Part shown: positions 1,452 through 58,400 of the stretch, in pieces
Layout of the letters: each line of letters begins with the position of its first letter
Position numbering within the stretch: position 1 is the stretch's first letter
Assembly: GCF_963576615.1 (NCBI RefSeq)
Contig: NC_088717.1
Span: 19,392,108 to 19,456,107 of the forward strand
Reading direction: 5' to 3'
Source: Watersipora subatra
Taxonomy: Eukaryota; Bryozoa; Gymnolaemata; Cheilostomatida; Watersiporidae
Length of the DNA: 64,000 bases
Notes under the pieces: model-generated
Told to the model about the DNA's origin: nothing
Database searches by the model: none
What the model saw: only the letters and a program-made list of their open reading frames with translations
Program-made: the position numbers and the translations under genes

Positions 1452-2392
1452 CAGTTTGAGAGGGTTTGTACTGCGCTTTGTCCGTCTGGATAAAAATTGA
1501 GACACTCTTAGATACAACAGTCACTTGTCCATATGACACGATTTCAGGAGCAGAAGGGTTAACCAACTGAAAAGCAACCCTAATCTGTGCGGAGCCTGGT
1601 CTTAGGTCTCTAGGGACAGATAGCGGAGCATCAAACACTTTTCCTGAAAAAAATGTTATACTGTTGTATAACATATGTATGTTAATGGTTGTATATAACA
1701 TATGTTAACAGTTGTATAATATATGTATGTAAAAAGTTGTGTGTAACATATGTTAGCGGTTGTATAACATATGTATGTAAAAGATTGTGTATAACATATG
1801 TTAACAGTTGTATAATATATGTATGTTAATGGTTGTATATAACATACGTTAACGGTTATATAAAATATGTATGTAAAAGGCTGTATATAACATATGTTAA
1901 CGATTGTATATATGTATGCAAAGAAGTTCTGAATGAAATTATCCAGAACTTTGACTTTCTGTTAACTTCCACACAACTAACCCTTGCTACGATTACACTC
2001 AGTAAAAAACTTTATAAAAATGCTCTTGCGTCTTTATGGAAACTAACCTGGTGTGAAAGAGTGGTTAGACGAAAACTTCTTCTGATTATTCTGGGAGATC
2101 TCCGTGACAACGCTGGAATACTGAGAGGAACCGCGAGTATTGTACTGAATATTAGCAGTCAGACCGGGGCGTATTATTTTAGGAACGAGTACTACATAAT
2201 CTTCTTGGTTTGATCCATGTGCACAGGAAGCCAGCAGCGCAATGATGAATATCTGTAGGAAACCTGAAACATGATAAAGTGACAAAGCGTTACAAACATG
2301 AAAATTAATACATTGATGAAGTGTTTGCTGAAAAGACATCTGAGAATATTTACCCATGTTTCAGCTGTTATGCCTGCACATGAAGTTGCCAT
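1452..2392 (-). CDS. TEP / CD109-like gene A, 5' end only (exons 1-3)
   Basis: First three coding exons of an alpha-2-macroglobulin-family gene that continues left of the window: exon 1 2354-2392, exon 2 2048-2252, exon 3 1452-1643 (read right to left). Exon 1 starts MATSCAG and exon 2 continues with a hydrophobic run ([13 protein letters not shown]), together a signal peptide; the following [12 protein letters not shown] and the exon 3 motif [11 protein letters not shown] are typical of macroglobulin domains 1-2. The family comprises secreted or surface proteins that trap proteases or tag targets through an internal thioester. Splice phases close exactly. Compared with gene B the encoded protein differs at only two seen places (NQE versus NQK, VPR versus VPS). 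The remainder of the gene is outside the window, so integrity is unknown. The ATG is the only methionine before the signal peptide core, but exon 1 is short and its assignment is the weakest part. Confidence 0.75.
1655..1920. repeat. Minisatellite, about 47-48 bp period, beside exon 3 of gene A
   Basis: Units built on GTTGTATAACATATGTATG alternating with a TATATAACATATGTTAAC half. The array begins about 12 nt upstream of the exon 3 acceptor. The gene B counterpart is about 44355-44620 with a few substitutions. Confidence 0.75.
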
Positions 2393-11900: not shown

Positions 11901-14900
11901 AAGCTGTTAGCCACATGCTTCCAGAAGGGTCACTTTGCCCAAATGCGCTGAATGAACCGTCCTCTCTCTGATAGGTCAGTTCTCTCTGATAACCTGCAGT
12001 TGAATTTTATTTATCAGTATCCTCACATATTTTCAGTCAGGGACCAAGAGTTATTTTTAGAACAGACGCACAGCAAGTAAAGACGTGTGTGACATCTTAT
12101 ATACCTAATAGTGACAAGACAGTACAGCTATGAGTTGGCTCCTTGTTTTAAAAAGGCGCACAGAAAATGAAAATCTAGGTGTGACACCTTATATATCTAA
12201 TAGTGACGAAACAGTGCAGGTGGGTTATATCATGTCTTGTAATATATAGATAAATATTATTTCTCTAACACTCTTTATCTTGTGTTAGGATGAAATGCCT
12301 CTAACCAATGACTGTATAGTAATGATGTATGTAAACCAATAGCTGTTATAGCACAGAGACAATAGCCTAAGTTTCTAAACTCCTCTCACATAAACACTAC
12401 AGACCTTTCTCCATGAATCCCAAACTCTTAGCCTTAGTTTCAGCTGTGAGTTGATTGGTCTGCATGAGATACTCAGTAACAAAAATTGTGGGAGCAAAGT
12501 TGAGCATATTTTGTTCTCCACAGCCATAAGGCATCCTGATAAGCTTATCGAGTCCAGTCAAAGCGGGTCCCATGACATCCCCTACATCATACAGCAACTA
12601 TCTGGAATGAATAGCACTATTTTGTGTAGAGAATGCAACTCCTATTCAATTAAATTCAAGTTCTTTAATATAATGAACGCTTACCAATGAGAGAAAACTC
12701 TACCCGTACTGAATCGCTGACAACGTTAGAAGGTAAATCTATAGCCAGAGTTTCTGTGAAGAGAGAGCTGTTGCTCAGATTAATGAGTACAGCTTGGTTG
12801 TATTCCTTCTGCACTCCCTCAGCCTGCAGTTAGTCCAGACACAGGAATGACAATCATATGACCTATATGACATGAGAAGTTTATTGAGAGATATTACCCA
12901 TAACAGACCTCAACTAGCAGAACTCTCTGAACAGCGTCAGCAGCTCCAGGGGTGGTGGCGGTGACCTTGACCTTCATTGAACCAATTGTTACGGGTACTA
13001 TAGGGAAGGAGATGGTGGTGCCACGGTTAGCCACTGCCTACAATATACCAGAGCCAGAATGATCTCTCTAAGCCTGTATAAGTAGTTACAACAGCTACAA
13101 TTACTGAAGAAAAAGGAAGTAGGACTCGTTAACAGCAAAGTGTAGTAGAGTCTTACAGTCTAGAAGGTTTATCATGTTATGCCAGTCAAAGTAACAACAA
13201 AAAACTGCTTAGAATTTATAAATTAGGTTCTAAATGCTCTTCTAAACATGACTTCTACATGTCAAACTTTAGCACAATCTTGGGTTTGCATATCTTGGGT
13301 TTGCATTGTGGCTGAGTGAAAACGCATGCTAGAAAGTGACAAACGTCAGCTAGACGTTATTCCGGATTCATTCAGTGCAAACAGCTAAAGAGACTACAGT
13401 GAAACAATAATTGTGCCTGACCAAAACTGTGACAGCTTCCTGTCGCTTGACATTTCTTGTGGAACCGGAGACGTCAATTACAATAGACCTGTACTCATCA
13501 GACTCTGGAAGTGTGACTGTAACATTTGCATCCCTGTCCAGGTAGTTGAAAACTATGGCTTGAAGAACGAGCTGCTCACCTCTAACCACTGAATATGGTA
13601 GATTGAGAGAAACAAAGAAAGGTCTAAAGACTCTCATCTGAAACATAAATAGAAACCTTCCGCTTGTGCGTAGATAGCCCTAAAGAGAACAATGCTGCAT
13701 AATGTTAAATGGGGAATATGTACATACCTTAGCAGTTTCTGGAGAGACCCCGAGACCAGCTATATCGGATACAGCAAAGGCGCTTGCTACCCACGAAGTG
13801 ATAGTGTCAGGGACTGTAGTAGTTACCACCACCTGACCATTTCTAATAATAAATAAATGGTTGTTTAAAAAATCTTCAAAAATATATGCAACGATTGTTT
13901 TCATATCAATCAGATTAATAAATTATTAAGACATTAATATGATGATAAGGTGAAATATCCATTATAATGGCAGAAAAGAAAAAGTTGGAAAATAAGTACT
14001 AATACTGAGCTATTGTAGTATACTAGTGAGTACTAACACTGAGCTAATGTAGTATACTAGTAAGTACTAACAGTGAGCTATTGTACTATACTAGGAAGTA
14101 CTGACAGTGAGCTAGTGTACTATACCTGTATGTATTAACGGTGAGCTAGTATAGCATACTAGTAAGTACTAACAGTGAGCTAGTGTAGTATACTAGTAAG
14201 TACTAACACTGAGCTAGTGTGGTATACCAGTAAGTACTAACAGTAAGTCAGTGTACTATACTAGCAAGTACTAACAGTGAGCTATTGTACTATACTAGGA
14301 AGTACTGACTGTGAGCTAGTGTACTATACCTGTAAGTACTAACGGTGAGCTAGTATAGCATACTAGTAAGTACTAACAGTGAGCTAGTGTAGTATACTAA
14401 TAGGTACTAACACTGAGCTAGTGTAGTATACTAATAAGTACTAACACTGCGCTAGTGTGGTATACAAGTAAGTACTAACAGTAAGCCAGTGTACCATACT
14501 AGCGAGTACTAACAGTGAGCTATTGTACTATACTAGGAAGTACTGACAGTGAGCTAGTGTTCTATACCAGTAAGTACTAACGGTGAGCTAGTATAGTATA
14601 CTAGTGAGTACTTACAGAGAGTTAGTGTAGTATAATAGTAAGTACTAACAGTGAGTTATTGTAGTATAATAGTAAGTACTAACAGTGAGTTAGTGTGGTA
14701 TACTAGTAAGTACTAACAGTGAGTTGTTGTAGTATACTATTAAGTACTAAAATCAAGCTGCTGTAGACGACATCTCTCATCCATAACACTCAATACTTTC
14801 AATCTCACTCTAATATGCTCCGTACTTTTCTTCCCATTTCATCATGCACCCTTTTTCTATTTTCTTTTTCTTCCTTTAGGATGTTCCCACCTCTCCCTCT

Positions 14901-17900
14901 TTTTTTTATTCCAATCTACAGTAATTGCATTTTTTTCTCCATTCTTTCGTGCATCCTCCCATATCTCTTCTATGGTGCATCCTCTAGTTTTTATTTTTTT
15001 CATTTTTATTTATACCTCCCCTTGTCATTCTTTTTGCTCTCCTGTCCTTTTAATTTTTTAATTCCCAGTTTATTACTTACACAGATGTTACATTAGACCA
15101 AAGCCAGCTTTCAGGAAAAACTTTTCGGACAATTTCAGGATTTCCAGCACGGGGTGGAGCAGCCCCGGTGGGAGGAGCAGCATCGGTAGGAGGAGGATTG
15201 TTGGGTCTTATTGCGTCCATTGGAGCTATTGGAGGCCTAAGCCCATCAATCATCGCAGGTACCCTCCAATAGTCACGATAATCATAATCTGGTGCTAAAA
15301 TCGAAAATATTAAAACCTCAAATTATAAACCGCTCAAGCAAATACTCAACAGATTATCCCCACTCTGGGCAGCAAAATACAAATGTATTTGCATAACTTG
15401 GCACCTTCTCAACAGCCAGAGATCTGTTTGTCTTACTCAACTGTGCTTATGCGTCTTGTTACTAACACTAAGTGTACTGCTGCTGTATCATGTTTATATC
15501 AATAAAAACCAGCATTACCGAACTCCTCAAATGTTTCGACTTCTGTAAGCCGAATTAGTAGCAATACAAACATATTATAGACCTTGGTCTAAACATCTTG
15601 TAAACAGACATTACAATTGGACCTACTAGTGAAATCAGTTTTAGTGACTAAAAACACAGAGCTTGACTGATACAGGTAGCTACATCTATATATATAACTT
15701 TCAATGTTTGTATTTTATTCGGTGGAATTTTTTGTGTTGGTTCGACCATCAAAGAAAGGTTTAGATCTCAGAACCTCCAGTTCTGGAGGCGGCAAGCTCA
15801 CCCATTTGGCTAGGCGTTCAGCTGATGGTGGCGACCAATAATAGTGAAAATATTCATCACATCAGTTAAAATACTCACACTTAAAGCGCTTGGGGTTATT
15901 AAAGTTGAATCTAAAAACCTTTTTTTGTAGATTTCATCAGAAAGTATCAGTATTTTTCTATCATTTATTATTGTTTTTTGTTGTTTGAAATGATCTGAAT
16001 GCCAGGATGTTTCAAAAATAAAATTGATGAAATCTGATCAGGTTTAAAACGCTCGCAAGAAAACTACGTGCAAAATGACATCACTAGTTGTTATCATCGA
16101 TAGTTAAAATCAGCTATTGGGTTCAAGTTGAAGCGCTTACGCGTCTCTGTTCTGCCAGTCTCTTTGCAATTATAGACGTTATAATCATACTCTCGATTGA
16201 TCTGAGCATTTTAATCGTGATCAAGTTTTGTAAAGTTGAATCTTGAAACATCCTGGCCATCAGATCACCTCAAACATCAAAAACAATTGCCAGATGATAA
16301 AAACTATCGATACTTTCTGATAAAATCTTTGTGTAAGTTCATCTTTACCTAGTTATGCGCAACGTAAAAATTATTAAGCCGGTTTCAAACATGGCTATAT
16401 TTTAGTAAAGATTTAACCTACTAGCTTACGAGATAAGTTACTCAAATGCATCGTATAATTATTTTATTATCCTTACAATGCTGGGCATTTGGCTAGTTTG
16501 TTATTAAAGAAAATTACTATTTTTCTTTGATGTCATGCACAGTGCGCAAGAATCTGGAGTGGTAGCTAGCAACATTTAGCTAGTTGGTGGCTGTTTAGCA
16601 AAGCCCAACTAGTTTTCACCATCAGTCAGTAGAATTGCTCCGGTAGATTATATGAAGGTATTTTAAGTTTTTTGTTTTGAAGCAAAATTTATAACGAGCT
16701 TTAACTAGTTATTCCAAAAATTACAAACCTTGGTCCGAATGTAACAAGAATGTTCCGATGAAAAAAAATTCTCGTTAAATTCTGGCCATCGTCAAGATAC
16801 CGCCAGCTGAATGTATATTTAAGAAAATTACAAGAAATTAAGTAAAACAGTCAATTTCATTTGCAGAAGATGGAATTCCGTTCAGGTTACTGACAACTAC
16901 TTGCCAAACTTATGCAGCCAACAAGCAGTCCTGGCACTTGACAACTGTGTTTACTATCCACAAGTTCTGTTAAACCGATTTTCTAAAAGATCTAGCCTAA
17001 TACCAATCACTTTTGATGGCCATGACTATTTACGTGGCACCAAATTGTGTCTACCGAGGCCTCGGCGATTACGTCACTTTGTGTTAGCTGTTTTCGAGAT
17101 ATGCAATTGCTTCAACATCTCTGGCCAGAGGCATTCCTTCACTCACCACGAAATGTGGGTTTCGTCTGTATATCCAGTGATTTCAATCCGCTGTAAGCCT
17201 CAATGACAGGAAACAGATTAGCTTCCTCAAGTTGTGCCATTACTAGTGCTTTTGCATCAGCTCAAACCTTTGGACTGTTTCAGAAAACTGGCCTTGACAA
17301 CCACAATTCATAAACACTAAAAGAATAGTTTTTTTTGGTTTTTTGTTTGATACCTGAGGTGTCTTTCAACTAAGGAGGAATTATTTCAAATTTTATAGCA
17401 ATCAAAGAATTGTTTATTATTTTCGGTGTATGTACCATTATTTTGCCCAGGTATATCCAAAATATCTGTAAATTGTGCACAAAGTACGGTTTTCGTGTCT
17501 CCTAAAAGTTGATGGAATCGATGCAAGCTCCAAGGATGTCTTGCTAATCATAGATTGTATGGAAACAACTGCCTTCTGGTTTCTGTCGGTATCCAGTAAT
17601 AGCCAACAGTAGCAGCCATTGTTCTGAAAGTCTGACTCTGGTCCAGTGTGTTTTAACTATCATAGAGTATGGTGAACATGAACAGTACCCCTTTATTATA
17701 CACAGAATTTTCACTGTAGCGCCCATGCTTTTCTTCTAGAGCTTTCCTTCGTCTCTCACTCATCTTACTGCTCTACCACAACAGATACCATTTTAGTTTT
17801 GTTTAGTTTTTTTCATTTCTTATTATATTCCCTCCCTTTCTTTTTTTCTTTTACCTCTGTCCCTTAACATAATCTTTCCTTTCACCTCTGTCCCTTAACA

Positions 17901-20900
17901 TAATCTTTTCTTTCACCTCTGCCCCTTAACATAATCTTTCCTTTCACCTCTGTCCCTTAACATAATCTTTCCTTTCACCTCTGTCCCTTAACATAATCTT
18001 TTCTTTCACCTCTGCCCCTTAACATAATCTTTTCTTTAACCTCTGTCCCTTAACATAATCTTTCCTTTCACCTCTGTCCCTTAACATAATCTTTTCTTTC
18101 ACCTCTGCCCCTTAACATAATCTTTCCTTTCACCTCTGTCCCTTAACATAATCTTTTCTTTCACCTCTGCCCCTTAACATAATCTTTCCTTTCACCTCTG
18201 TCCCTTAACATAATCTTTCCTTTCACCTCTGCCCCTTAACATAATCTTTCCTTTCACCTCTGTCCCTTAACATAATCTTTCCTTTCACCTCTGTCCCTTA
18301 ACATAATCTTTCCTTTAACCTCTGTCCCTTAACATAATCTTTCCTTTCACCTCTGTCCCTTAACATAATCTTTCCTTTCACCTCTGTCCCTTAACATAAT
18401 CTTTCCTTTCACCTCTGTCCCTTAACATAATCTTTCCTTTCACCTCTGCCCCTTAACATAATCTTTCCTTTCACCTCTGTCCCTTAACATAATCTTTTCT
18501 TTCACCTCTGCCCCTTAACATAATCTTTCCTTTCACGTATGTCCCTTAACATAATCTTTCCTTTAACCTCTGTCCCTTAACATAATCTTATTATTCCTCC
18601 TCACTCCGCCACTCTATCTCATCCAATAAACTACCTCCTCTCCCAGGTTCCTCTAATACACTCCCTCTTTTCTCTCTCTCTCTCTCTCTCCATCTTTTCT
18701 TTTTTGTCCTTCTTTATTTTCTCCAAACTATCTTCCCTTCACTATAATATCTCTTACATACATGTTTAATCCAGTTTATACTTGCCTTCTCAATCTTATT
18801 TCCTTTAATCAGAAAGCTTATATAAATGATTGAGTTAAATTAATGCTGCTTATTTGAATTAATACAATTTTTCAACTCACACAGATGTCACATTAGACCA
18901 AAGCCAGCTCTCTGGAAACACCTTGCGAACAGATACACTTTCAGAATTTGTTGTTTTTGAAGGGGCAGCTCCAGTTGGAGGAGGACGTTGTTTCTCAATT
19001 ATCTTAGGAGCCAGAGCACTCTTTGCAAATGCCTCGTTAGCGAATCCATTTAAGTGAACTAATGGGCGTATTCGCCATATATCTCCAAATCCACCAGTTG
19101 GTTCTGAAATTTTGAGAAGTTCACAACTCAACTCTAACAGGTGTATTTTGTATAGTCATCCAATACAACGTCAGACTGTAACCACGTGTTTAGAAAAATT
19201 AAAAATGATTTGAGACAAATAAATGCGAAAAATTGGAATAAAAATAAAAAAAAATTTGAGAAGACAACTCTGCAGATTTATTTAGTACAGTTGTCTAATG
19301 CAACGCCAGACTGCAACCAAGTGTCTAAAAGCATGATATTGCTCTTGCTTTTTCCCCTGCACCCAATGATCAAGGTGTGTGAATCACCGGCTATACGTGT
19401 GAAAGTTGAGAATACTGTCAATACACAAAATTTGCGAGTTTTTCGGTAGTGCATGAGCAATGTAAAACCTGGTTTATAACTTGATTAGACAGTTTTGTTA
19501 ACCAGTCCTAAAAAATACTTTCCTCATGAGCTACTGTGTTACCTATATTTTTTGCCTCATGTTACATCTCTAGATTATTTACGTCCAAACTAATGTACAT
19601 GAAGCTTTTGCAGACCAGTGGTTTTGCAACCAGCTGTCAAATCACATTAAACCAAGCATTCGATTTATCCAATCACATTAGATCAAGCATTAGACTTATC
19701 CAATCAGATTAGACCAAGCGTTAGACATCCAATCACATTAGACCAAGCATTAGACTTATCTAAACGGATTAAACCAAGCATTATACCTATCCAATCATAT
19801 TAGACCAAGCGTTAGACTTATCCAATCACATTAGACCAAGCATTAGACTTATCCAAATGGATTAGACCAAGCATTATACCTATCTAATCACATTAGACCA
19901 AGCATTACATTTATCTTTACCCAATGGACAATGCATTACATTCAATTTAACCATATAAGAAAGGGTGAATTGCAATATATGGCTAAATCAAATGTTACTA
20001 AATTAGTATAACAACATATGACCTTGACAGAAATACAACACAAAGTATGAGTGGTAGTTCAAGATCCTATAAGCAAAATCTCTCTTCACTACTCCTATTT
20101 GTCAAGATAGTATGTTCTAAAAGTAAGTGTATACAAAAAGGGTATGGCATGTTACAGACTTTCCCGCATGTCAAGCACAACTAACTACACAGCTATGTGC
20201 TATAGCAGAAAAATCAATCAAAAACCAAGAGTAGTTACTATTGGTTTTTGATTTTCAGCTCCTTTTACTTTCTCGCTCTTTTTCACTACTTTCTCATTTT
20301 ACTTCTTAACGTACTTGATTACACATTGCATTAAACCACATGGCTTCCATAAAATTCTATGAAAACCTAAATACAAAAAACTAAATTAAATTTTAAAAAG
20401 AATGAATGAATAAAGCAGTAATATTAAATAAAAATTTTATTGTTACTTTATGGTAGACAGAAAACTGAAAGCGCTGAGCAATGCGGAGGTTCAGAGATGC
20501 AGGTAGCAACACAGATATGCAGTGTAACTGGCTTAGATGTAAACTAGGTAATTCTTATATAGTTTAGCTTAATTCTTATATAGTTTAGCTTATATTTGAA
20601 AATATTTTTATACTTTTTCAAAAATTTATTTTTATTTTCACAAGCTTCTTCACTTTCATTTACAAGATTACAGTGTTTTAACAAACTCTGAAAGTGATAC
20701 GTTGAAAATGTAAATGTTGAGGTGATCGGAAGTTGAGGTTTGACTTCAGATAGTAACTAGCAGTAAGTTTTAAAATAAAAATACAGTGAAACATGGATAA
20801 CTCGCCCTCGGATATAGCGAACACATGGTTAACTCGACTGGATTTGCTTGGTCCGTTCCCACGCAATGATAAATGGCTCTATGTAACTCGAACTCAACAC

Positions 20901-23900
20901 TGTTAATTCGAACTGTTTTTTGCCCAACGGCTACCGAAACAGTTGCTATCGCTTTAGAAAATCACTTTATTTCAAGCCATAGAGGTAAACTCAACTTTTC
21001 GTAATTCATAAGCACCGTTACTACCTCCATCGGCAAAATATTTTTGTCAACGACTGTTCTAAAGGTTTGGTGAAATTTGATTTATACGTACTACTATACG
21101 ATGAATAGCACGGGCTAGCCGGGTCACAGGCGCAAGGATTTTCGCCACGCACATACAAAACAAAAACAGCATGTTGTTTTTGTTTTGTATTTGCGTGGCG
21201 AAAATCCTTGAGTGCGTGACCCGGCTAGCCCGTGATGAATAGTTTTCCGACGTGGATTCCGAGTTGAATCAACGTCGGAATGTTGAATGTTTAAAACGTC
21301 TTAAAAATTGTAATTAAACGTATACATGTACGTTGTCTTAGCTAAAAAAAACTATTCATCGTTTGACCTAAACACAGAATACGTGTGTACATTCAATAAG
21401 TATCCATTCAAAAAACGTTAGTGATATACAATGTACCGTTAAACTTCGTAAAACTTTTAATTGAACTGCCTCGGAGTGTTGCTCTTAATGAATGCCAGGT
21501 AAAGTAAGGTAATCTTTGGATAAACTTCAAGAAAAATCGGCAAAATTGATCGTGGGTAAAACGCTCAAAAGAAAAAGATGTCTTTTCTTTTGAGCATTTC
21601 AGCAACGATCAAGTTTTGCCAATGTCAATCTAAAAAATGTCCTGGCAATAACATCACCTCAAACAACAAACCAATCTCAAGTGATAGAAAAATCTCTATA
21701 CTTTTTGATAAAAAACGTTTTAAACTTTACATTAGAAGCATTTAATTTGAAACAAGCCATTTGTACTTTTGATTTATATTATAGTTTGTATATGTTCATG
21801 TATCTACTAATAAATAAGTAAATACATGGACTTGTGACAGTGCTCTGATAACTTGAACACTCTGATAATTCGAACACTTTTGCTCGGTCCCTTGAAGTTT
21901 GAGTTATCCGAGTTTCACTGTAGTTTTACAAACCTGGCAGAAAGCATGGAACATATGCTTGTGAAATTTGGATGAAATTGGAACAAAAATGTGGAAACGC
22001 ATCGCGTTTACGCAGACTAACAGACAGTCAAGGACAAAATAGGATTTATTACAATGGATGATGTTGAGATGTACTGTAGAGAAAGCATCACACACATCAA
22101 TAGACATCAGAGTGAAGAAAGAAGACATAGTACATATGTTTTATTTGCAAAATAAAAACTTTATGCTCAGTGGAATCAGTCTATTGAATAGGTCTTACAG
22201 CTTACCTGCTTCATACACCTTTGCAGAAGTCAAAGCTAAAAGCCCCGAATTGTCCAGCAATTTCTTTGTATCCTCTCCACTTGTGACATATGGATACCAG
22301 AAAAAGCCCACAGGTTTGGATACAGTGTCATAAGATTGCAACTGCGACACAACCTACATTAAGAGTAGAGACTATGTACAAGTCCTATAAAAATTGATTT
22401 AATGGATTCATTTTGTCAACAGCTCTAAAACAGCTCTGTAACATGACATGATAAGTGCTAAATCACATTTCACATGTGTTACAACATATATACTACATGA
22501 AAACTGTACGTGTAGTACATTCAAATCATAATATATTAAGTTAATCCACTTTGATATATTTTTTTCTTATTCAAACCGTCACATATTAGAGCAAATGTTA
22601 TTATAAGAACATATAATACTGTAAAACCCCTAACTGAACGCCATCTCTATTTGACTGTCACTATTAAAAAAGGGTTGGAAAATCGAGCGCCATGGCGGTT
22701 AATTAGAGGTTTTACGATATGTTTGATTCAAGCCTAGGAAGGAAAAGAACATTTTTAGTGTAGCAGTATATATAGACAAGCATGTTTCTGTTGAATATCT
22801 ATGAACAAGCAGTATATATAGACAAGCATGTTTCTGTTGAATATCTATGAACAAGCAGTATATATAGACAACCATGTTTCTGTTGAATATCTATGAACAA
22901 GCAGTATATATAGACAAGCATGTTTCTGTTGAATATCTATGAACAAGCATGAAGCTATGTTAGTGGTTTTAAGCAATCAAAACGTGACACTGGTAAAACT
23001 ATCCAGTGAAAATTAGTACTAGATGATGTCTGTAATATGCTGCTTGGTCGCAGCTTGACTGTAGCTTGATACACCTACAGTATACTACCTAACACTTTCC
23101 AATATACTGACACAGTAGACAGGCCTACCGTCAGTCTGCTGTGGGTGAAATACAATGGGCCTAACGGAGCAACATACTTTTATTTTCCTCAATTTGTATG
23201 AAAAACTCTTTCACTCTTTTGGTAAGGTCCCCATATCATTAGTTTGCTTGTTTCTAAGAGTACCATATCTGTAGTTTATCCGTTGCTAAGGGCACCATGA
23301 CCTGAGTTTGGCTGTTGCTAAGGTCACTATGACCGTTGTTTAGCTGTTGCTAAGATCATCATATCCTTTATTTAGCCGCTTCTAAGAACACCATGACTTT
23401 CGTTTAGCCATTGCTAAAACTGCTACATCATTAATTCAGCTTTGCTGGTCCTGATGAAGTCACGGAGATGTTAGCATTGCTGTCGCTAAAATCACCTTAT
23501 GTTTATCTTGGCTTTTGACAATAGAACTGTATTTAGTTTTATTGCTGCCAATGTAGTCTGTTACCTCTATTTTATTATATACTAAGTGTCCATACAGCGA
23601 CAGCTTAGAGACGCACCCAGTATGGCACTGCAATGCCATCATGGAAGCAGCCTGTCATTGTCATTCTGTAATGATTCAGCGCCGCTGTTTGGAATCGAAA
23701 TCACCGCACGATGTGCCATCTTTGTGCCATGGAAACGGCCTTAGCGACCAACGGCGTTGCGCTTGCGTGGACAAATAGGTCTTGTTTGCCTGTTGGTTCA
23801 AATGCAAACATACATCTTGACATAAGGCATCACACAACCATCACTCCACTATAGCGCCTGTGGAAACAGGAGCAGCTTGTCAGCCCGGTGTAGAGTTTTA

Positions 23901-26900: not shown

Positions 26901-29900
26901 CATATGAAGGCACCGCATAAACATTTATCGTCTCATCATATAAACATCGAACCTCATGAAATAGATCTAAATAACCAAACCAAAACCTGTACCTGAATGA
27001 AGACTTGGTATCAACAATGATACTTCCTGATGTTATCATGGAACCACGCGCCCATATTTGGTAGTCAATTATTTGACTAGATTTTGTGGTGGACAGTGTA
27101 AAGGTTGCCGCAGAATTAGCCTACATTACAAACAAAACAGATACAAATTGTGGTGAAACTCCTTGTTTGTAGCAACTATGAGTTATCAGACTTGATGTCC
27201 CCTTGCAAACTGCAAGTCTCATGTAGCATATTTCCTTATGATTTCACGTCTGTATATATTTGTTCCATATTTTGATACTTCATACAGTTGTTATACATTT
27301 TAATTGTAGGAACTTTGGGTTTAGTTTAACTGTTGCTATGGCCACTATTTCTTTAGTTTGGCCTTTGCGAAGACTAATATACCGGTATCTGTACTTTAGC
27401 TGTTGCTAAGTTCACTACATGTTTAGTTTAGCAGTTGCTATGACTACCATATCTTTAGTTTAACTGTTGCTAACTGTTGTATCTGTAATGTAGCTGTTGT
27501 CAAGGACACAATGTCAATACTACAAGCTGAATACTGAAATACTGAAAGCACAATGCAGTTAACTAAGAATCTCTTACAAGAGTTACGCCGGCCTCTTCAG
27601 TAAAGTTATCAAGGATTACCTTAGGTTTGAGGGTATCTAAAGACAGCTGCAGGAAATTGCTGTTCTGAGATTTGGTCTGTTTGATAATCTTGGATGCTGT
27701 CACACCGACCTTGTTATCGTACTTCGCCTGTAAAACCGGTAAAAACTAGACTTGTTTTGAGGAAAAAGCAGAACAAAGCAAAAAGTCGGTCGTGTATTAG
27801 ATATATATAGCTTTAAGTATAAATAAGAATGCAAAATGTTATGAAATTGCTGCTTTGCAAGTGTCTAGTGGCAGACTTCATGCCTAGACCTCACCCATCA
27901 GGTAACAGTAACAATAGTAGCCTACATATACATTTTATAAACATGCATATGTACATGTATATAAAATTACTATTTATCCTATTTTAAGACAAAGAAACAG
28001 ATAAATGATATATGGTATGGCAACACTGGCTATACACTGAAGGACCGTTTCCTTATGATGAGGAGAGTACATTGTATAGATAAAGAGGAAGTACTGACAT
28101 ACATATACACTGAAGGACAGTTTCCTTATGATGAGAAGAGTATATTGTATAAAAGAAAGAGGAAGTACTGACATACATATACACTGAAGGACAGTTTCCT
28201 TATGATGAGGAGAGTACATTGTATAAAATAAAGAGGAAGTACTGACATACATATACACTAAAGGACAGTTTCCTTATGATGAGGAGTGTACATTGTATAA
28301 AATAAAGAGGAAGTACTGACATACATATACACTAAAGGACAGTTTCCTTATGATGAGAAGAGTACATTGTATGAATAAAGAGGAATTACTGACATACATA
28401 TACACTGAAGGACAGTTTCCTTATGATGAGGAGAGTACATTGTATAAAATAAAGAGGAAGTACTGACATACGTATACACTAAAGGACAGTTTCCTTATGA
28501 TGAGGAGTGTACATTGTATAAAATAAAGAGGAAGTACTGACATACATATACACTAAAGGACAGTTTCCTTATGATGAGAAGAGTACATTGTATAAATAAA
28601 GAGGAATTACTGACATACATATACACTGAAGGACAGTTTCCTTATGATGAGGAGAGTACATTGTATAAAATAAAGAGGAAGTACTGACATACATATACAC
28701 TAAAGGACAGTTTCCTTATGATGAGAAGAGTACATTGTATAAATAAAGAGGAATTACTGACATACATATACACTGAAGGACAGTTTCCTTATGATGAGGA
28801 GAGTACATTGTATAAAATAAAGAGGAAGTACTGACATACATATACACTGAAGGACAGTTTCCTTATGATGAGGAGAGTACATTGTATAAATAAAGAGGAA
28901 ATACTGACATACATATACACTAAAGGACAGTTTCCTTATGATGAGGAGAGTACATTGTATAAAATAAAGAGGAAATACTGACATACATATACACTAAAGG
29001 ACAGTTTCCTTATGATGAGAAGAGTACATTGTATAAAATAAAGAGGAAGTACTGACATACATATACACTGAAGGACAGTTTCCTTATGATGAGGAGAGTA
29101 CATTGTATAAATAAAGAGGAAGTACTGACCTACATATACACTGAAGGACAGTTTCCTTATGATGAGGAGTGTACATTGTATAAAATAAAGAGGAAGTACT
29201 GACATACATATACACTGAAGGACAGTTTCCTTATGATGAGAAGAGTACATTGTATAAAATAAAAAGGAAGTACTGACATACATATACACTTAAGGACAGT
29301 TTCCTTATGATGAGGAGAGTACATTGTATAAAATAAAGAGGAAGTACTGACATACATATACACTGAAGGACAGTTTCCTTATGATGAGAAGAGTACATTG
29401 TATAAAATAAAAAGGAAGTACTGACATACATATACACTAAAGGACAGTTTCCTTATGATGAGGAGAGTACATTGTATAAAATAAAGAGGAAGTACTGACA
29501 TACATATACACTGAAGGACAGTTTCCTTATGATGGGGAGAGTACATTGTATAAAATAAAGAGGAAGTACTGACATACATATACACTGAAGGACAGTTTCC
29601 TTATGATGAGAAGAGTACATTGTATAAAATAAAGAGGAAATACTGACATACATATACACTGAAGGACAGTTTCCTTATGATGGGGAGAGTACATTGTATA
29701 AAATAAATAGGAAGTACTGACATACATATACACTGAAGGACAGTTTCCTTATGATGAGAAGAGTACATTGTATAAAATAAAGAGGAAATACTGACATACA
29801 TATACACTAAAGGACAGTTTCCTTATGATGAGAAGAGTACATTGTATAAAATAAAGAGGAAGTACTGACATACATATACACTGAAGGACAGTTTCCTTAT

Positions 29901-32900
29901 GATGAGGAGAGTACATTGTATAAATAAAGAGGAAGTACTGACCTACATATACACTGAAGGACAGTTTCCTTATGATGAGGAGAGTACATTGTATAAAATA
30001 AAGAGGAAGTACTGACATACATATACACTGAAGGACAGTTTCCTAATGATGAGAAGAGTACATTGTATAAAATAAAAAGGAAGTACTGACATACATATAC
30101 ACTAAAGGACAGTTTCCTTATGATGAGGAGAGTACATTGTATAAAATAAAGAGGAAGTACTGACATACATATACACTGAAGGACAGTTTCCTTATGATGA
30201 GAAGAGTACATTGTATAAAATAAAAAGGAAGTACTGACATACATATACACTAAAGGACAGTTTCCTTATGATGAGGAGAGTACATTGTATAAAATAAAGA
30301 GGAAGTACTGACATACATATACACTGAAGGACAGTTTCCTTATGATGAGGAGAGTACATTGTATAAAATAAAGAGGAAGCACTGACATACATATACACTG
30401 AAGGACAGTTTCCTTATGATGAGGAGAGTACATTGTATAAAATAAAGAGGAAGTACTGACATACATATACACTGAAGGACAGTTTCCTTATGATGAGGAG
30501 AGTACATTGTATAAAATAAAGAGGAATTACTGACATACATATACACTAAAGCAGTGATTTTCAACCACTGTGCCGCGGCACACTAGTGTGCCGTGAGAGA
30601 TCCTCAGGTGTGCCGTGAGAAATTATCCAAGGTCCCTTTTTAAATACAGGTTCCTCAGGCTCTGAGGCAACTTATGCGGTAGGAGTGTTGTATTTGAATG
30701 CCAAGGCCTTGATGTAGTAGGCTAAATATCCAGGCACAGTGATCTAGGTGCATCTACTTTAGTGTTTCATGCATAGTCAATGCATTTAATATCGGCCCAC
30801 AAAACTCAAAGTCCATCGAAAGCCGTCGTTTAGTACAATATGCCTAGTTAGGCACCTCTGATTACTAACTAGTGTGATGAATGTCAAAGTGTCGCTCAAA
30901 TCAATGATATACAGCCCCTAACTGAACTGAAACAGGATCGGGTTTAAAACTAAGATTTGCTTATCCTCCTTTGGACAGTTTTTGGTTGACTGCTGCCAAG
31001 GAGTTCCCCATTCTGACCAACAAAGCTATTCTCACATTGCTCCCATTTTCTACCACATATCTGTGTGAGCTGAGCTTTTCAAGCCTAACTTCTATAAAAA
31101 CTAAAAGCAGAGTGAGACTGAGAGCTGTTGAAGAAGAGCTTCGTGTCTTTCTTTTATTCCTGCCAGGATATTGGCATTATGTTTATCTAAACAGGCCCAG
31201 GTTTCACACTGACTGAGTATCAATAAATTGATGAATTTTATTGTGATTAAATATACCGTTCAGAGTGTCATTTTATAAAATTTTTGGTTAGTGGTGTGCC
31301 GCAAAAATTTTCCAATGTAAAAATGTGCCTTGACTCAAAAAAGGTTGAAAAACACTGCACTAAAGGACAGTTTCCTTATGATGAGGAGAGTACATTGTAT
31401 AAAATAAAGAGGAAGTACTGACATACATATATGGTGGTGCTATCTGTGCCAGCTGGAACATCTACTAAAAGCTCAGCAAGACCATTGCTTGAAAAGTTGA
31501 CAGTCACATCTTTAGAATTAGTTATGTAGCGAGGATAAGGCCAGAAACCTCCAATCGAGCTATCTTCTTCACATAAAAACAAACAATAAAGCATAAAGTC
31601 GCAATAAGTGTGCCCTCAAAGACTAATAGTCTAAAGTTAAAAAGTTTATACAGAGCAGTGGGAGCAACGCCCGTAAACTAGCGTCTTGAAGAATCTGAAT
31701 TTAACTAATTCTCTAAAGATAAAACAGTTTTTGATGTGAATGACCAGAAGAGAGAATATGAATTTTAATTAAAAAAATAGAATACTTCTGTGCCAAAACA
31801 CAACAGGAAACCAACATAACAGACAAAAAAGAACTGAGTGAGAATGGAAAGCGCAGCATAACAGAGAATGAGAATGAAGTAAATGCTACCCAGTCAACAC
31901 CATTCAGACTTACTGGCAACACTTTTAAAGGCAAGGTTCACATTGGCCTGCTTAGGCTGGAGCACGATTCCTCCATCCACTTGTGTTAATGACAGCTGTC
32001 AAACACAAATACGCCATTGGTTAAGACACCAGAAAGTGTACACAGCCTATGGCATACAAGACATCAGGTGAGCAAGAGTATACGGCCCATGAGGTGTTAA
32101 TACAGTATAAGATAACTTGATTTGCAGATACGAACAATATAGAGAGACAGTGGGTGTACACACTATGAGATAACATTGACTTGTTATCTCATAAAGTCTC
32201 TAATAAAAATGTAGGATAAAAGACATGAGAGCTGAGTATATACACTAGGAGATAACAGTGGCTTGTACATATATACAATAGAGCAGGTGGTGTATACACC
32301 ATAAACGACAGCGGGTGTATACATTATAAGACAAAACAAGGATTTGAAAGTGTAGGCTGCAGAACAATTATTAAAAAGAATTTGGATTTGTAAGGAACAT
32401 ACAAGATAGGAACTATGTAATCTATACATATAAATCTCAAAGTCTGTCATCTGTCGTCATCTGTTCTGTGCTGTCTGTTCGGCTATAGAGATTAAAATCT
32501 TAGAATGAATGACACCCTTCATATTGGATTAGAACTCACAAATAATGCGGCCACAATTTTGTAAACACGAGCACCTAACAACACGAGCACCTAACAACAA
32601 AGCTAAACCATTCTTAACATTCACCTCGCTCTTACCATATACGTACTCTGTATCCTTTTCGCAATTTTACATGCTAAATTATCGTTATCAGCTTTTGCAT
32701 TTGTTAATTTTTGAAATTTTTTAAAAGCTAATTTTTTCTACCATTACCTTTTTTAATTTGTAATTTTCAACTGTGCTGTGCCAAATTTGCTGTTATACTC
32801 CTATTTCTGGTTTTTTCTAAGGTTCGATTGTTAAATCGGTAAAGTTTAATACTTTTCACGTGGACAATTGTATTATCTCAAGTAGGAATAGCCTCTACAT

Positions 32901-46377: not shown

Positions 46378-49300
46378 ATGCACCAGAAGCTCAATTTACT
46401 GTTATGTGGCTTAGCTGGGGAAGCTGGTGCATTCCATAGACTTTTCATACAAGGTAGGAGTTAAAAACTTCTGAATAGATGCTTGCATTTGCCCAATACA
46501 TTTGCGTGAGAACTGAAAATGTTACTTGTTGAACAGGAGTTGGAAGTGTTGGCCTTTCTGGATTACATGGTCCAACCGATGAGAAGGAAGCTCAAGAAGC
46601 GATAATCTATGCAATAGACAGCGGTGTTAACTTCATTGACACAGCACCATTCTACAACAACCGGCGGTGAGCAGCCAGCCCGCTTCCTGCTGCCTAATCA
46701 GATGTGTATTAATAGCTATCTTGCTCAGTGATGGTTTAAAAAATAACTTGCTAAAAACCTGTTTATTGCTTCAACTTTTACTCGGCGGAGTAAGACAAGT
46801 AGAATAATGGCAAATACCACGGTTATACCTAAACCTGTCTTGAGATAAGTAGGAGAGCATAATTCTTGTAGAGCTGAAGAACTACTAGGCGACATCGTGT
46901 CACAGTTCGACCGAGAAACTATTTGCTTGGCTACAAAAGTAGGGAGATATATGGATCCTGCCAGTAGCACACAGAGGTGAGTAGCTTGTAACCTGGTTCA
47001 GTGTTTACTGTGAGACTTACTAGAACTAAAGAACTATGAAATAGCTATTTCTGTTGACAAAGTGGCTTTGGGCTTTTTCACTCGCTTAAATATGTATATT
47101 TAATACACTAGGTTACTCATGACAGTAGAGTTATGGCTCCCTGTACTTGCGCCTATGTGTAGTACGCATCTATGGTAGTACTATTCTTTGTTTTACGGCA
47201 TGAATATTATGGCTTTATGAATATTATGGGAACATTCAGCATGTTGCCATGTTCACAATGGACGCCATGGTGCAATTGTTAAATTGGAATGTTGAATGTC
47301 GGGTTTTCAAGTTTTTATTTGTGACTGGTTGGTAGGAATAAATCTAGGTCGCAATCTTTACCATAAACAGCGCAGTGTCTGGTGGCGTCTGAAGCCAGGG
47401 TTGAGAGGTTAAATAAAAGACAGTTTCCTACAGGATTTCAACTCGCGACATATGGGTTAATAGACCTTCACACTAACACCTGCACCAACTAACCAACCAC
47501 CTCTTGACAATTCGGAATAGTTATGGACATACTTATTCTCTGTGATTGCCTGTGCACATGACTCTTCACTGCCAGGGTGCTAGTGCAATAGTTCACGTTT
47601 AGTTGTTTTTTGACGAGTGCATGTTATACATTATTATTGGGTTTTTGTACATTTTCTATCCTTTATAGCTTTGACTATTCTGCTGAAACGACGAAGGAAA
47701 GTGTGCTGAAAAGCTTACAATGTATGAAGCTGTCATACATAGACCTTGTGCAGATACATGATGTAGAACACGCGCCCAGCCTACAGACCCTTATCAATGA
47801 AACTATTCCATGTTTAGTAGATCTAAAGATGTCTGGACTTATCAAGTCTATTGGTGTTACAGGTAAATTTATTTAGACATGATTGCTGATTGATTGATTG
47901 ATAACAATATTGCAAACATGATTGATTAATAAATTTAACATGATTGCTGTACAGTTAGTTTGTACATAAGGAATGTTTCTTAGACAGCTAAGGTCATTGA
48001 CACGAGCTGTTCCTTAGACAAATACACAATTCTCCCAGAGCTTGGTTTTGAAGATGTAAACAAGGAGTCATGTTGGTTACCAACAATATTTGTATTCAGC
48101 ATGCTGCCGGCAGTCGGCAAAATGGTTTTAACATTTTTTGTTGTCAGCTCAAATGATGTCACAACTGCCAGAGGAGCTGTCAAAACACTCCTGATTGATC
48201 CAACACTTCCTACATCAATATTTTTGCCATTGTTTTAGTAAAGATGCGAAAAGTTTAGGCTGTAGTGCCATAAACATCTGATAGCTTTAGATTGGACTTG
48301 ACAACCATTGTGTTAGTTACCACAAGCATTCCGAAGCTTTGTTATGTGTTGCAGGCTACTCTACAAGGCATGTTCGGAAACTAGTCGAGGCCTGTATGGA
48401 GCATATAGATGTGGTCATGTCATACTGCAGACACAACGTGTATGATACCACTTTAGCCAGGGATCTACCATTTTACAAAAATAACAACATTGGAGTGATA
48501 AATGCATCTCCCCTTGGTGAGTTGGCATCAAATTTGATCTACTGCATTAGCCATTATTGCTGCTATTATAAGTTTTTATCGATGCCTATAAAAATATATG
48601 TATATTCATCTTCATAGTTTTTGTACCTAACAAACATCTTTCCCTACATGCAACAAGACAGCACAGATTATTGACTTACAAACAGACATTTTACCGACTT
48701 TTGCATTATGAGTTGTGTTCTCTTTACAGGAATAGGACTATTCACTAATGGAGAGAGCATAGCTTCTTGGCACCCGGCGACAGACGAGATAAAAGAAGCC
48801 TGCAAAGAAGCTGCAAACTACTGTGACTCTCAGGGAGTAGACATTGCACGACTAGCACTCAGGTACCTTGTCTTTAATTTCTGTAATATTCGTGCAGTTA
48901 TTAGACCAGTTAATAGCAGTAATCGTGCAGTTATTAGACCAGTTAATAGCAGTAATCGTGCAGTTATTAGACCAGTTAATAGCAGTAATCGTGCAGTTAT
49001 TAGACCAGTTAATAGCAGTAATCGTGCAGTTATTAGACCAGTTAATAGCAGTAATCGTGCAGTTATTAGACCAGTTAATAGCAGTAATCGTGCAGTTATT
49101 AGACCAGTTAATAGCAGTAATCGTGCAGTTATTAGACCAGTTAATAGCAGTAATCGTGCAGTTATTAGACCAGTTAATAGCAGTAATCGTGCAGTTATTA
49201 GACCAGTTAATAGCAGTAATCGTGCAGTTATTAGACCAGTTAATAGCAGTAATCGTGCAGTTATTAGACCAGTTAATAGCAGTAATCGTGCAGTTATTAG

Positions 49301-50823
49301 ACCAGTTAATAGCAGTGATCGTGCAGTTATTAGACCAGTTAATAGCAGTAATCGTGCAGTTATTAGACCAGTTAATAGCCGTGATCGTGCAGTTATTAGA
49401 CCAGTTAATAGCAGTAATCGTGCAGTTATTAGACCAGTTAATAGCAGTAATCGTGCAGTTATTAGACCAGTTAATAGCAGTAATCGTGCAGTTATTAGAC
49501 CAGTTAATAGCAGTAATCGTGCAGTTATTAGACCAGTTAATAGCAGTAATCGTGCAGTTATTAGACCAGTTAATAGCAGTAATCGTGCAGTTATTAGACC
49601 AGTTAATAGCAGTAATCGTGCAGTTATTAGACCAGTTAATAGCCGTGATCGTGCAGTTATTAGACCAGTTAATAGCAGTAATCGTGCAGTTATTAGACCA
49701 GTTAATAGCAGTAATCGTGCAGTTATTAGACCAGTTAATAGCAGTAATCGTGCAGTTATTAGACCAGTTAATAGCAGTAATCGTGCAGTTATTAGACCAG
49801 TTAATAGCAGTAATCGTGCAGTTATTAGACCAGTTAATAGCAGTAATCGTGCAGTTATTAGACCAGTTAATAGCAGTAATCGTGCAGTTATTAGACCAGT
49901 TAATAGCAGTAATCGTGCAGTTATTAGACCAGTTAATAGCAGTGATCGTGCAGTTATTAGACCAGTTAATAGCAGTGATCGTGCAGTTATTAGACCAGTT
50001 AATAGCCGTGATCGTGCAGTTATTAGACCAGTTAATAGCAGTAATCGTGCAGTTATTAGACCAGTTAATAGCAGTAATCGTGCAGTTATTAGACCAGTTA
50101 ATAGCAGTAATCGTGCAGTTATTAGACCAGTTAATAGCGGTAATCGTGCAGTTATTAGACCAGTTAATAGCAGTAATTTTGCAGTTATTAAATTGATGTT
50201 AACAAGTATACAACTGTTCAATTTCTGGAAGTCGATTATGAAAAGATGAGTGCTCTACCGAGGAGCTTATGAATCAGCCAATCATCATGTAGCTCTATAC
50301 ACTGTGTAGTCACATGCAAATCTATTCATCATAGACTCGCATGTAGGTCGTCTATACACTGTAGGGTTGCATTCAAGAAAGTGTAATTAATTTTTAAAAA
50401 AGAAGGAAACTTCTAAAGCTACTCTAGGAGTCGTGGTCTGCAGTGGAAGATTAAGAATGCAATTTGGAGGACATATCAGATAAAAGGCAATTATTTCTAG
50501 AGCTATCAGTATGAGATTCAAGTTACAGGAGTAGTCCTCTCCTTGATATTATTTGAGCATCTGCTGCATGCTTTCCAAGCTTACCGACTCACCTCTTGTG
50601 TTATTACAGGCATTCCGCTGAGACAGAGGACATCTCGATGACACTATGGAGTAGCAGAAAGCTACAGCATATGAGGTCAAACATATCTTGCTCCATTTTA
50701 CCACTGACGAAATTAGAAAAGTCCACTATGCAGTATATCAAAACGGAAATATTGTCACGCGTTCAGGACAAACATTGGGAAGAGCAGCTGAATAAAGAAA
50801 ATCCATTTTGGCCAATAGAATGA
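46378..50823 (+). CDS. Aldo-keto reductase, L-galactose dehydrogenase-like, copy 2
   Basis: Exons 46378-46453, 46537-46666, 46872-46976, 47669-47862, 48355-48516, 48730-48862, 50610-50823; each has exactly the length of its copy 1 counterpart, giving 337 residues. The tetrad D60, Y65, K91, H134 is intact. Seen replacements relative to copy 1 are few: PASS for PASG, HAPS for HVPS, QLNK for QLDK. The gene is longer only because the intron 6 minisatellite has 39 units. About 40 bp before the last acceptor present in copy 1 are missing here. The AATAAA after the stop reads AAGAAA. Divergent with TEP gene B, convergent with TEP gene C. Confidence 0.82.
47984..48240. other. Second copy of the unassigned dual-strand open stretch
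   Basis: Counterpart of 5287-5543, still open on both strands, with about one codon changed (LGI to LGF on plus). Confidence 0.35.
48888..50174 (+). repeat. 33-bp minisatellite, 39 units, in AKR gene 2 intron 6
   Basis: Same unit as copy 1 with 27 extra units (891 bp). Variant units (CCGTGATCG three times, AGTGATCG) recur at intervals, pointing to block expansion. It reads in frame from exon 6 as an 11-residue repeat for 39 units. Confidence 0.95.
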
Positions 50824-55400: not shown

Positions 55401-58400
55401 ACATGCTTCCAGAACGGTCACTTTGCCCAAATGCGCTGAATGAACCATCCTCTCTCTGATAGGTCAGTTCTCTCTGATAACCTGCAGTTGAATTTCATTC
55501 ATCAGTATCCTCACATATTTTCAGTCAGGGACCAAGAGTTATTTTTAGAACGGGCTTACAGAAAGTGAAAACGTGTGTGACACCTTATATATCTAATAGT
55601 GACAAAACAGTACAGCTATAAGTTGGCTCCTTGTTTTAAAAAGGCGCACAGAAAGTGAAAACCTAGGTGTGACACCTTATATATCTAATAGTGACGAAAC
55701 AGCGCAGGTGGGTTATATCATATCTTGTAATATATAGATAAATATTATTTCTCTAACACCCTTTATCTTGTGTTAGGATGAAATGCCTCTGACCAATGAC
55801 TGTCTGGTAATGATGTACGTAAACCAATATCTGTTATAGCGCAGAGACAATAGCCTAAGTTTCTAAACTCCTCTCACATAAACACCACAGACCTTTCTCC
55901 ATGAATCCCAAACTCTTAGTCTTAGTTTCAGCTGTGAGTTGATTGGTCTGCATGAGATACTCAGTAACAAAAATTGTGGGAGCAAAGTTGAGCATATTTT
56001 GTTCTCCACAGCCATAAGGCATCCTGATAAGCTTATCGAGTCCAGTCAAAGCGGTTCCCATGACATCCCCTACATCATACAGCAACCAGCTGGAATAAAT
56101 ACCACTATTTTGTGTAGAGAGTGCAACTCCTATGAAATTACATTGAAGTTCTTTAATGTAATGAAAGCTTACCAATGAGAGAAAACTCTACCCGTACTGA
56201 ATCGCTGACAACGTTAGAAGGTAAGTCTATAGCCAGAGTTTCTGTGAAGAGAGAGCTGTTGCTCAGATTAATGAGTACAGCTTGGTTGTATTCCTTCTGC
56301 ACTCCCTCAGCCTGCAGTTAGTTCAGACACAGGAATGACAATCATATGACCTATATGACATATGAGAAGTTTATTGAGAGATATTACCCATAACAGACCT
56401 CAACTAGCAGAACTCTCTGAACAGCGTCAGCAGCTCCAGGGGTGGTGGCGGTGACCTTGACCTTCATTGAACCAATTGTTACGGGTACTATAGGGAAGGA
56501 GATGGTGGTGCCACGGTTAGCCACTGCCTACAATATACCAGAGCCAGAATGATCTCTCTAAGCCTGTATAAGTAGTTACAACAGCTACAATTACTGAAGA
56601 AAAAGGAAGTAGGACTCGTTAAAAGCAAAGTGTAGTAGAGTCTTACAGTCTAGAAGGTTTATCATGTTATGCCAGTCAAAGTAACAACAAAAAGCTGCTT
56701 AGAATTTATAAATTAGGTTCTAAATGCTCTTCTAAACATGACTTCTACATGTCAAACTTTAGCACAATCTTGGGTTTGCATATCTTGGGTTTGCATTGTG
56801 GCTGAGTGAAAACGCATGCTAGAAAGTGACAAACGTCAGCTAGACGTTATTCCGGATTCATTCAGTGCAAGCAGCTAAAGAGACTACAGTGAAACAATAA
56901 TTGTGTCTGACCAAAACTGTGACAGCTTCCTGTCGCTTGACATTTCTTGTGGAACCGGAGACGTCAATTACGATAGACCTGTACTCATCAGACTCTGGAA
57001 GTGTGACTGTAACATTTGCATCCCTGTCCAGGTAGTTGAAAACTATGGCTTGAAGAACGAGCTGCTCACCTCTAACCACTGAATATGGTAGATTGAGAGA
57101 AACAAAGAAAGGTCTAAAGACTCTCATCTGAAACATAAATAGAAACCTTCCGCTTGTGCGTAGATAGCCCTAAAGAGAACAATGCTGCATAATGTTAAAT
57201 GGGGAATATGTACATACCTTAGCAGTTTCTGGAGAGACCCCGAGACCAGCTATATCGGATACAGCAAAGGCGCTTGCTACCCACGAAGTGATAGTGTCAG
57301 GGACTGTAGTAGTTACCACCACCTGACCATTTCTAATAATAAATAAATGGTTGTTTAAAAAAATCTTCAAAAATATATGCGACAACTGTTTTCATATCAA
57401 TCAGATTAATAAATTATTAAGACATTAATATGATGATATAAGGTGAAATATCCATTATAATGGCAGAAAAGAAAAAGTTGGAAAATAAGTACTAATACTG
57501 AGCTATTGTAGTATACTAGTGAGTACTAACACTGAGCTAATGTAGTATACTAGTAAGTACTAACAGCGAGCCAGGGTACTATACTAGCGAGTACTAATAG
57601 TGAGCTATTGAACTATACTAGTGAGTACTTACAGTGAGTTAGTGTAGTATAATAGTAAGTACTAACAGTGAGTCATTTTAGTATAATAGTAAGTGCTAAC
57701 AGTGAGTTAGTGTAGTATACTAGTAAGTACTAACAGTGAGTTATTGTAGTATACTATTAAGTACTAAAATCAAGTTGCTGTAGACAACATCTCTCATCCA
57801 TAACACCCAATACTTTCAATCTCACTCTAATATGCTCCGTACTTATCTTCCCATTTCATCCCTTTTTCTATTTCCTTTTTCTCTCCTTCAGGAAATTCCC
57901 ACCTCTCCCTCCTTTTTTATTCCAATCTACAGTAATTGCATTTTTCTCTCCATTCTTCTGTGCATCCTCCCAGATCTTTTCTATGGTGCACCCTCTAGTT
58001 TTTATCTTTTTCATTTTTATTTATACCCCTCCTTGTCATTCTTTTTGCTCTCCTGTCCTTTTAATCTTTTGATTCCCAGTTTATTACTTACACAGATGTT
58101 ACATTAGACCAAAGCCAGCTTTCAGGAAAAACTTTTCGGACAATTTCAGGATTTCCAGCACGGGGTGGAGCAGCCCCAGTGGGAGGAGCAGCATCGGTAG
58201 GAGGAGGATTGTTGGGTCTCATTGCGTCCATTGGAGCTATTGGAGGCCTAAGCCCATCAATCATCGCAGGTACTCTCCAATAGTCACGATAATCATAATC
58301 TGGTGCTAAAATCGAAAATATTAAAACCTCAAATTATAAACCGCTCAAGCAAATACTCAACAGATTACTCCCACTCTGCGCAGCAAAATACAAATGTATT

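Follow-up and report, generated by a model that had tools for sequence, protein, structure and literature searches.

Bait-region exons used in an either-or manner have already been described in thioester-containing proteins (TEPs). In Biomphalaria glabrata, BgTEP2 is reported from transcriptomes to carry 12 tandem mutually exclusive bait exons over 30 kb, which vary in length and composition and keep a conserved C-terminal part (PMC7016707). According to passages of the same paper, CfTEP of Chlamys farreri has six mutually exclusive bait exons with tissue- and challenge-dependent expression, and BgA2M and BgCD109 of B. glabrata have alternative exons 17-18 and 16-17, respectively, at the bait position. 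Five isoforms of Drosophila Tep2 are produced via alternative exon 5, which encodes the hypervariable or bait region (PMC5489563, PMC7016707). The open-access passages searched contained no description of a Daphnia TEP bait case, and bait splice variants of tick A2M were found there by cited title only. A probable further case of this device, smaller in exon number and present in three gene copies, is described here in the bryozoan Watersipora subatra. The window analyzed is a stretch of 64,000 nucleotides (nt) (NC_088717.1, positions 19,392,108 to 19,456,107; C10:19392108-19456107 in our numbering), and it harbors a TEP gene, henceforth gene A, with two candidate alternative bait exons, 17a and 17b.

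Gene A resembles BgTEP2 as an iTEP with tandem bait exons; unlike BgTEP2, it has two such exons, is known from genome sequence rather than from transcripts, and lies among three tandem copies. With CfTEP it shares bait-region isoforms predicted to arise from mutually exclusive exons, which are more numerous in CfTEP. The likeness to Drosophila Tep2 concerns the alternative bait exon; however, Tep2 is an insect gene, and insect TEPs have 11 to 15 exons (PMC7016707) compared with 28 coding exons in gene A. BgCD109 has a glycosylphosphatidylinositol (GPI) anchor signal (PMC7016707), whereas the gene A model ends in a Cys-rich C-terminal tail, with four Cys within the final 18 residues; a C-terminal cysteine stretch is named as an iTEP feature in the same paper. 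The features of gene A needed below are as follows:

8954 to 44964, minus strand: gene A, a CD109/iTEP-like TEP; splice-aware model, 28 coding exons per isoform, start codon not placed
22206 to 22353, minus strand: exon 16 (e15 in our model), upstream and common to both isoforms, out phase 1
18881 to 19103, minus strand: bait exon 17a, 223 nt, one base in, two out
15081 to 15288, minus strand: bait exon 17b, 208 nt, one base in, two out
15081 to 15236, minus strand: short 17b (156 nt), which begins at an internal AG acceptor and gives the sole in-frame 17a-17b join found
13728 to 13842, minus strand: exon 18, downstream and common to both isoforms, in phase 2
12511 to 12525, minus strand: thioester motif GCGEQ

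The gene A model was obtained by a splice-aware build on protein anchors followed by hand refinement, and its residue counts begin at GFLQIF (position 44964), not at a start codon. The lengths of 17a and 17b are both 1 mod 3: each exon receives one base from exon 16, whose donor is CAG/gtaagc at 22206, and hands two bases (GT) to exon 18 at 13842. With 17a alone the open frame has 1441 residues, and with 17b alone 1436. Because the exon is asymmetric, inclusion of both in full length or of neither leads to an early stop: at model residue 719 if 17a is joined to 17b at 15288, and at residue 649 if both are skipped. Position 15288 belongs to a tandem acceptor pair in which the other member, 15294, lies 6 nt away, is also in frame and adds two codons; joining both exons at 15294 is likewise stopped. 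The pair is found in genes A and B, while gene C has the equivalent of 15288 only. For this reason 15288 was favored as the 17b acceptor, and 15294 was dropped.

A single exon 16 and a single exon 18 flank each 17a/17b pair. Related exons that stand in tandem, have the same phase and are bounded by one common exon on each side are the layout expected of a mutually exclusive cluster. Exons 17a and 17b end in an identical stretch of 16 residues; the 48 nt that encode it differ at 7 positions, and all 7 differences are silent. When 7 random base changes were simulated 200,000 times under each of two mutation schemes, an all-silent outcome was obtained once and six times, respectively. Hence, both ends have been kept as protein.

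Gene A is one of three tandem TEP copies that share one orientation and lie in the order B, A, C. All 29 exons of gene A, 17a and 17b among them, were matched in B and C. The isoform frames are open in six cases out of six, with GT-AG at each splice site examined; B and C were modelled with gene A exon lengths except for gene C 17b, the sole exon among the 29 that needed a changed length for frame and splice sites. The parts of B and C used here that lie in the window are as follows; the remainder of gene C, including its own 17a and 17b, lies outside:

63941 to 64000, minus strand: gene B exon 16, in-window part, which runs on to 64088 in window numbering
61615 to 61837, minus strand: gene B exon 17a
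58092 to 58299, minus strand: gene B exon 17b
57218 to 57332, minus strand: gene B exon 18
2048 to 2264, minus strand: gene C first modelled coding exon
1452 to 1643, minus strand: gene C second modelled coding exon

Membership of gene A in the alpha-macroglobulin/TEP superfamily is indicated by its domain set together with GCGEQ. Isoform a matches six Pfam families above cut-off (MG2, MG3, BRD, A2M, TED and receptor-binding domains), and a seventh match, SQHop_cyclase_C, falls under its cut-off. No NTR family, and thus no C345C/NTR domain, was detected by Pfam in isoform a at E 0.001. When a 518-residue segment of gene A, from exon 14 into the TED, was compared with solved structures, CD109 was the top match (1.6e-114), with A2M next. 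Proximity to CD109 and lack of a C345C/NTR domain place the gene with iTEP/CD109 proteins, an assignment made by structure match and Pfam.

In the CD109 and A2M alignments, exon 17 directly precedes VRK-FPETW. The CD109 alignment begins at the common end (VRK-FPE-W), and the A2M alignment continues through, so that the variable part of 17a falls on the A2M stretch ahead of that motif; alignment there is loose, and the match is one of position. The bait of human A2M is located there, at residues 690-728 according to a table in PMC6650032. The Pfam match named 'bait region domain' lies upstream (451-584), not on exon 17.

Altogether, frame, splice sites, the three paralogues, silent-only divergence of the common end and position before VRK-FPETW strongly support that 17a and 17b are two coding alternative bait-region exons, and their either-or use is the best inference from these data. 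The first-pass annotation had proposed such a pair, and its description of the exons (a shared end, one base taken, two carried) is confirmed by sequence and gene model. It had also announced a closed protein of 1450 or 1445 residues with either exon: the open frames and the difference of five residues stood, and the lengths were not reproduced. Finally, its statement that serial use shifts the frame is correct at 15288 and 15294 and fails at the internal acceptor 15236.

The variable bait has 58 residues in 17a, and in 17b 53 residues in genes A and B and 45 in gene C. Lys and Arg each number 3-4 in baits of the 17a type; those of the 17b type lack Lys and contain 4-5 Arg and 10-13 Pro. The A and B versions are distinguished by 4 residues in 17a and by a single residue in 17b. 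In 17a, 4 of the 5 differences alter the residue; this faster change was considered as a sign of selection and discarded, as the numbers are too few. Gene C 17b (184 nt) has a PTGAAP repeat, is 8 codons shorter and is clearly distinct from its A and B counterparts. Six nominal isoforms would thus come down to roughly three baits that are clearly distinct, and the earlier suggestion that the exon pair doubles specificity across the cluster was overstated, given that baits hardly differ between A and B and that only the gene C 17b stands clearly apart. Work on engineered human A2M (PMC8267569) suggests that selectivity can depend on bait sequence, and each bait may answer a different protease.

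The explanation that best accounts for the whole, and that we hold to be very probably correct, is a duplicated bait exon spliced in an either-or manner, with two proteins that differ in the bait loop and with the reading frame as limit. Gene A would encode a presumably secreted CD109/iTEP-like thioester protein whose bait-region exon is tandemly duplicated. During pre-mRNA splicing, exon 16 would be joined to 17a or to 17b and then to exon 18, yielding isoforms alike outside the bait loop. If both exons were included at the main acceptor, or both were skipped, a premature stop would fall over 1.9 kb ahead of the last junction, and such mis-spliced products would probably undergo nonsense-mediated decay; the frame would thus restrict which products turn into protein. 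A protease that cuts the bait would thereby release the thioester, and the 17a bait (Lys, Arg, aliphatic) and the 17b bait (no Lys, rich in Pro and Ala, with Arg and aromatic residues) might attract different proteases.

This last step admits another interpretation, which concerns function only and overlaps with the splicing scheme just described: the isoforms may exist, with the bait swap serving target recognition or turnover instead of protease specificity. CD109 as closest solved relative speaks for it, as does the suggestion, in passages of PMC7016707, that BgTEP2 binds the surface of Schistosoma mansoni directly or indirectly; however, the variable part sits at the protease-bait position of A2M, and we regard this interpretation as unlikely, yet far from negligible.

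Several observations weigh against either-or splicing of a duplicated bait exon. The frame is the single safeguard shown, and no selector beyond it was identified. Comparison of the introns of the three genes yielded no selector intron pairing in B or C; one inverted pairing was found in gene A, within sequence that B lacks (20769-21920 in A, compared with about 150 nt in B). Conserved RNA docking or a selector structure was discarded as mechanism, as the pairing occurs in gene A alone. Steric exclusion is unlikely because 17a and 17b are 3.6 kb apart. Divergence between A and B is not in itself a sign that 17a or 17b is constrained: 5 of 223 bases differ in 17a and 3 of 208 in 17b, and five introns differ by 2.1, 3.0, 8.9, 0 and 1.0% (the intron with 8.9% holds a tandem repeat). 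On a simple score, the donors of 17a and 17b reach only 0.5 each, compared with 5.6 for exon 16 and 3.6 for exon 18, although that of exon 19 is lower still, at 0.2. Lastly, acceptor 15236 permits an in-frame product with 17a and short 17b, and in-frame equivalents of this acceptor exist in genes A, B and C.

The low donor scores might be taken to indicate that either 17a or 17b has become a relic and dropped out of splicing, and a decayed exon-like stretch does occur elsewhere in gene A (33045-32950, with a stop in gene C). We consider this very improbable: 17a and 17b are open and bear GT-AG sites in three genes, and their common end has changed only silently between them. Inclusion of both exons through 15236, which would lengthen the bait and duplicate the FPESWLW strand, is hardly to be expected: the joined frame runs for 4479 nt with no stop, and a splicing model naive to exclusivity, albeit built to favor more open coding sequence, did pick the 17a-15236 join, but the product doubles a strand found once after the bait in the A2M and CD109 alignments, and 15236 scores about 0 with a purine-rich tract, compared with 0.9 for 15288 and 1.2 for the 17a acceptor (a weak point, as the exon 18 acceptor also scores about 0).

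Intron 16, which precedes the bait exons, measures 3102 nt in A, 2103 in B and 2106 in C. About 1.15 kb of the A intron (20769-21920) contains palindromic stretches and is perhaps a mobile element insertion.

Over all exons, A and B differ at 65 of 4531 nt, with 32 changes that alter a residue and 33 that are silent. The bait exon was thus duplicated before the gene was copied, both versions being present in A, B and C. A further TEP gene, gene D, is inverted with respect to the cluster (C10, plus strand), and one bait exon was found in it. Compared with gene A, exon e14 and most 3' exons of gene D are 91-99% identical, e25 is 66% identical, matched 5' exons are 74-84% identical, and several exons have no DNA match; this mosaic is suggestive of gene conversion. 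Out of 50 positions of the shared end, 17a and 17b differ at 7, 17a and D at 15, and 17b and D at 12, figures compatible both with gain of the second bait exon in A-C and with its loss in D.

Bait exons were also sought across the assembly to which the window belongs (783.7 Mb, 239 contigs), using the back-translated pattern F-P-[ED]-[ST]-W-x-W, which would miss divergent exons. Nineteen sites were found genome-wide, and none with a reversed control. Their exon ends were assigned by position to 12 TEP/A2M genes, 5 of which have more than one: two each in A, B and C, and three each at C3:70.666 Mb and C4:26.93 Mb. One end each was assigned to D and E (C10, plus strand) and to genes at C3:57.27, 70.707, 70.756, 70.827 and 70.855 Mb. 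Downstream of the motif, the top-scoring donor has phase 2 at 19 of 19 sites. Of the 13 sites that do not belong to A, B or C, 11 have their best acceptor in the corresponding phase, and those at 70.707 and 70.756 do not. Asymmetric phase looks like a property of the family, and with such a phase a tandem copy of the bait exon would begin as an either-or choice.

The two genes with three ends differ in layout. In the A2M-like gene at C3:70666122-70666789, three bait ends lie within about 0.67 kb, one of the exons being Asn-rich, and are followed by a single downstream exon. In the TEP gene at C4:26933718-26936737 (minus strand), three bait ends of the same phase are spaced apart; exon 18 was not found at the loci searched, and the nearest whole-genome match was weak (E 0.044).

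Two A2M-like genes carry collagen-like baits. The bait exon of the gene at C3:70.827 (C3:70827024-70827303) is collagen sequence, with 22 consecutive Gly-X-Y triplets and a Pfam Collagen match of 4.5e-11. The match of its next exon starts about 260 nt downstream, a TED segment with GCAEQ comes then, and the common end plus next exon give A2M as best match (3.2e-24). In the gene at C3:70.756 the Gly-X-Y runs are broken (8, 9, 5 and 4 triplets; Collagen 3.8e-12). Among the titles and abstract openings listed from one open-access library, none described a collagen-like bait. A tentative proposal, about which we are more doubtful than confident, is that in this animal the bait exon serves as a frame-locked module across the alpha-macroglobulin family, comprising at least 19 exons in 12 genes that have one asymmetric phase in common, some of them replaced wholesale, including by collagen sequence that might act as decoy for collagen-cutting proteases.

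If the either-or scheme is true, the swapping of bait exons has survived intact while the gene was copied in tandem to three, and the phase of the exon offers a simple reason for its copies becoming mutually exclusive. The bait set of one genome also makes the link between bait and protease testable, and the collagen-like baits provide a clear test case.

Additional observations concern the window at large. The exon-like open stretch at 33045-32950 of gene A resembles, by eye, an MG4 segment; only 75 of its 96 nt were matched in genes B and C, and it is probably a decayed exon. Nothing in the 64-kb window matched Rfam at gathering scores or a tRNA scan run with bacterial settings. When viral contigs were compared with a 360-residue query (exon 18 onward), one pattern match and no confirmed relative were obtained, in a search from which the genome of the window itself was possibly left out. 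Long tandem repeat arrays occur in and between the genes at 28031-30551, 38693 to about 40700, 48887-50190 and 17844-18602, with units of about 74, 16, 33 and 31 bp, respectively.

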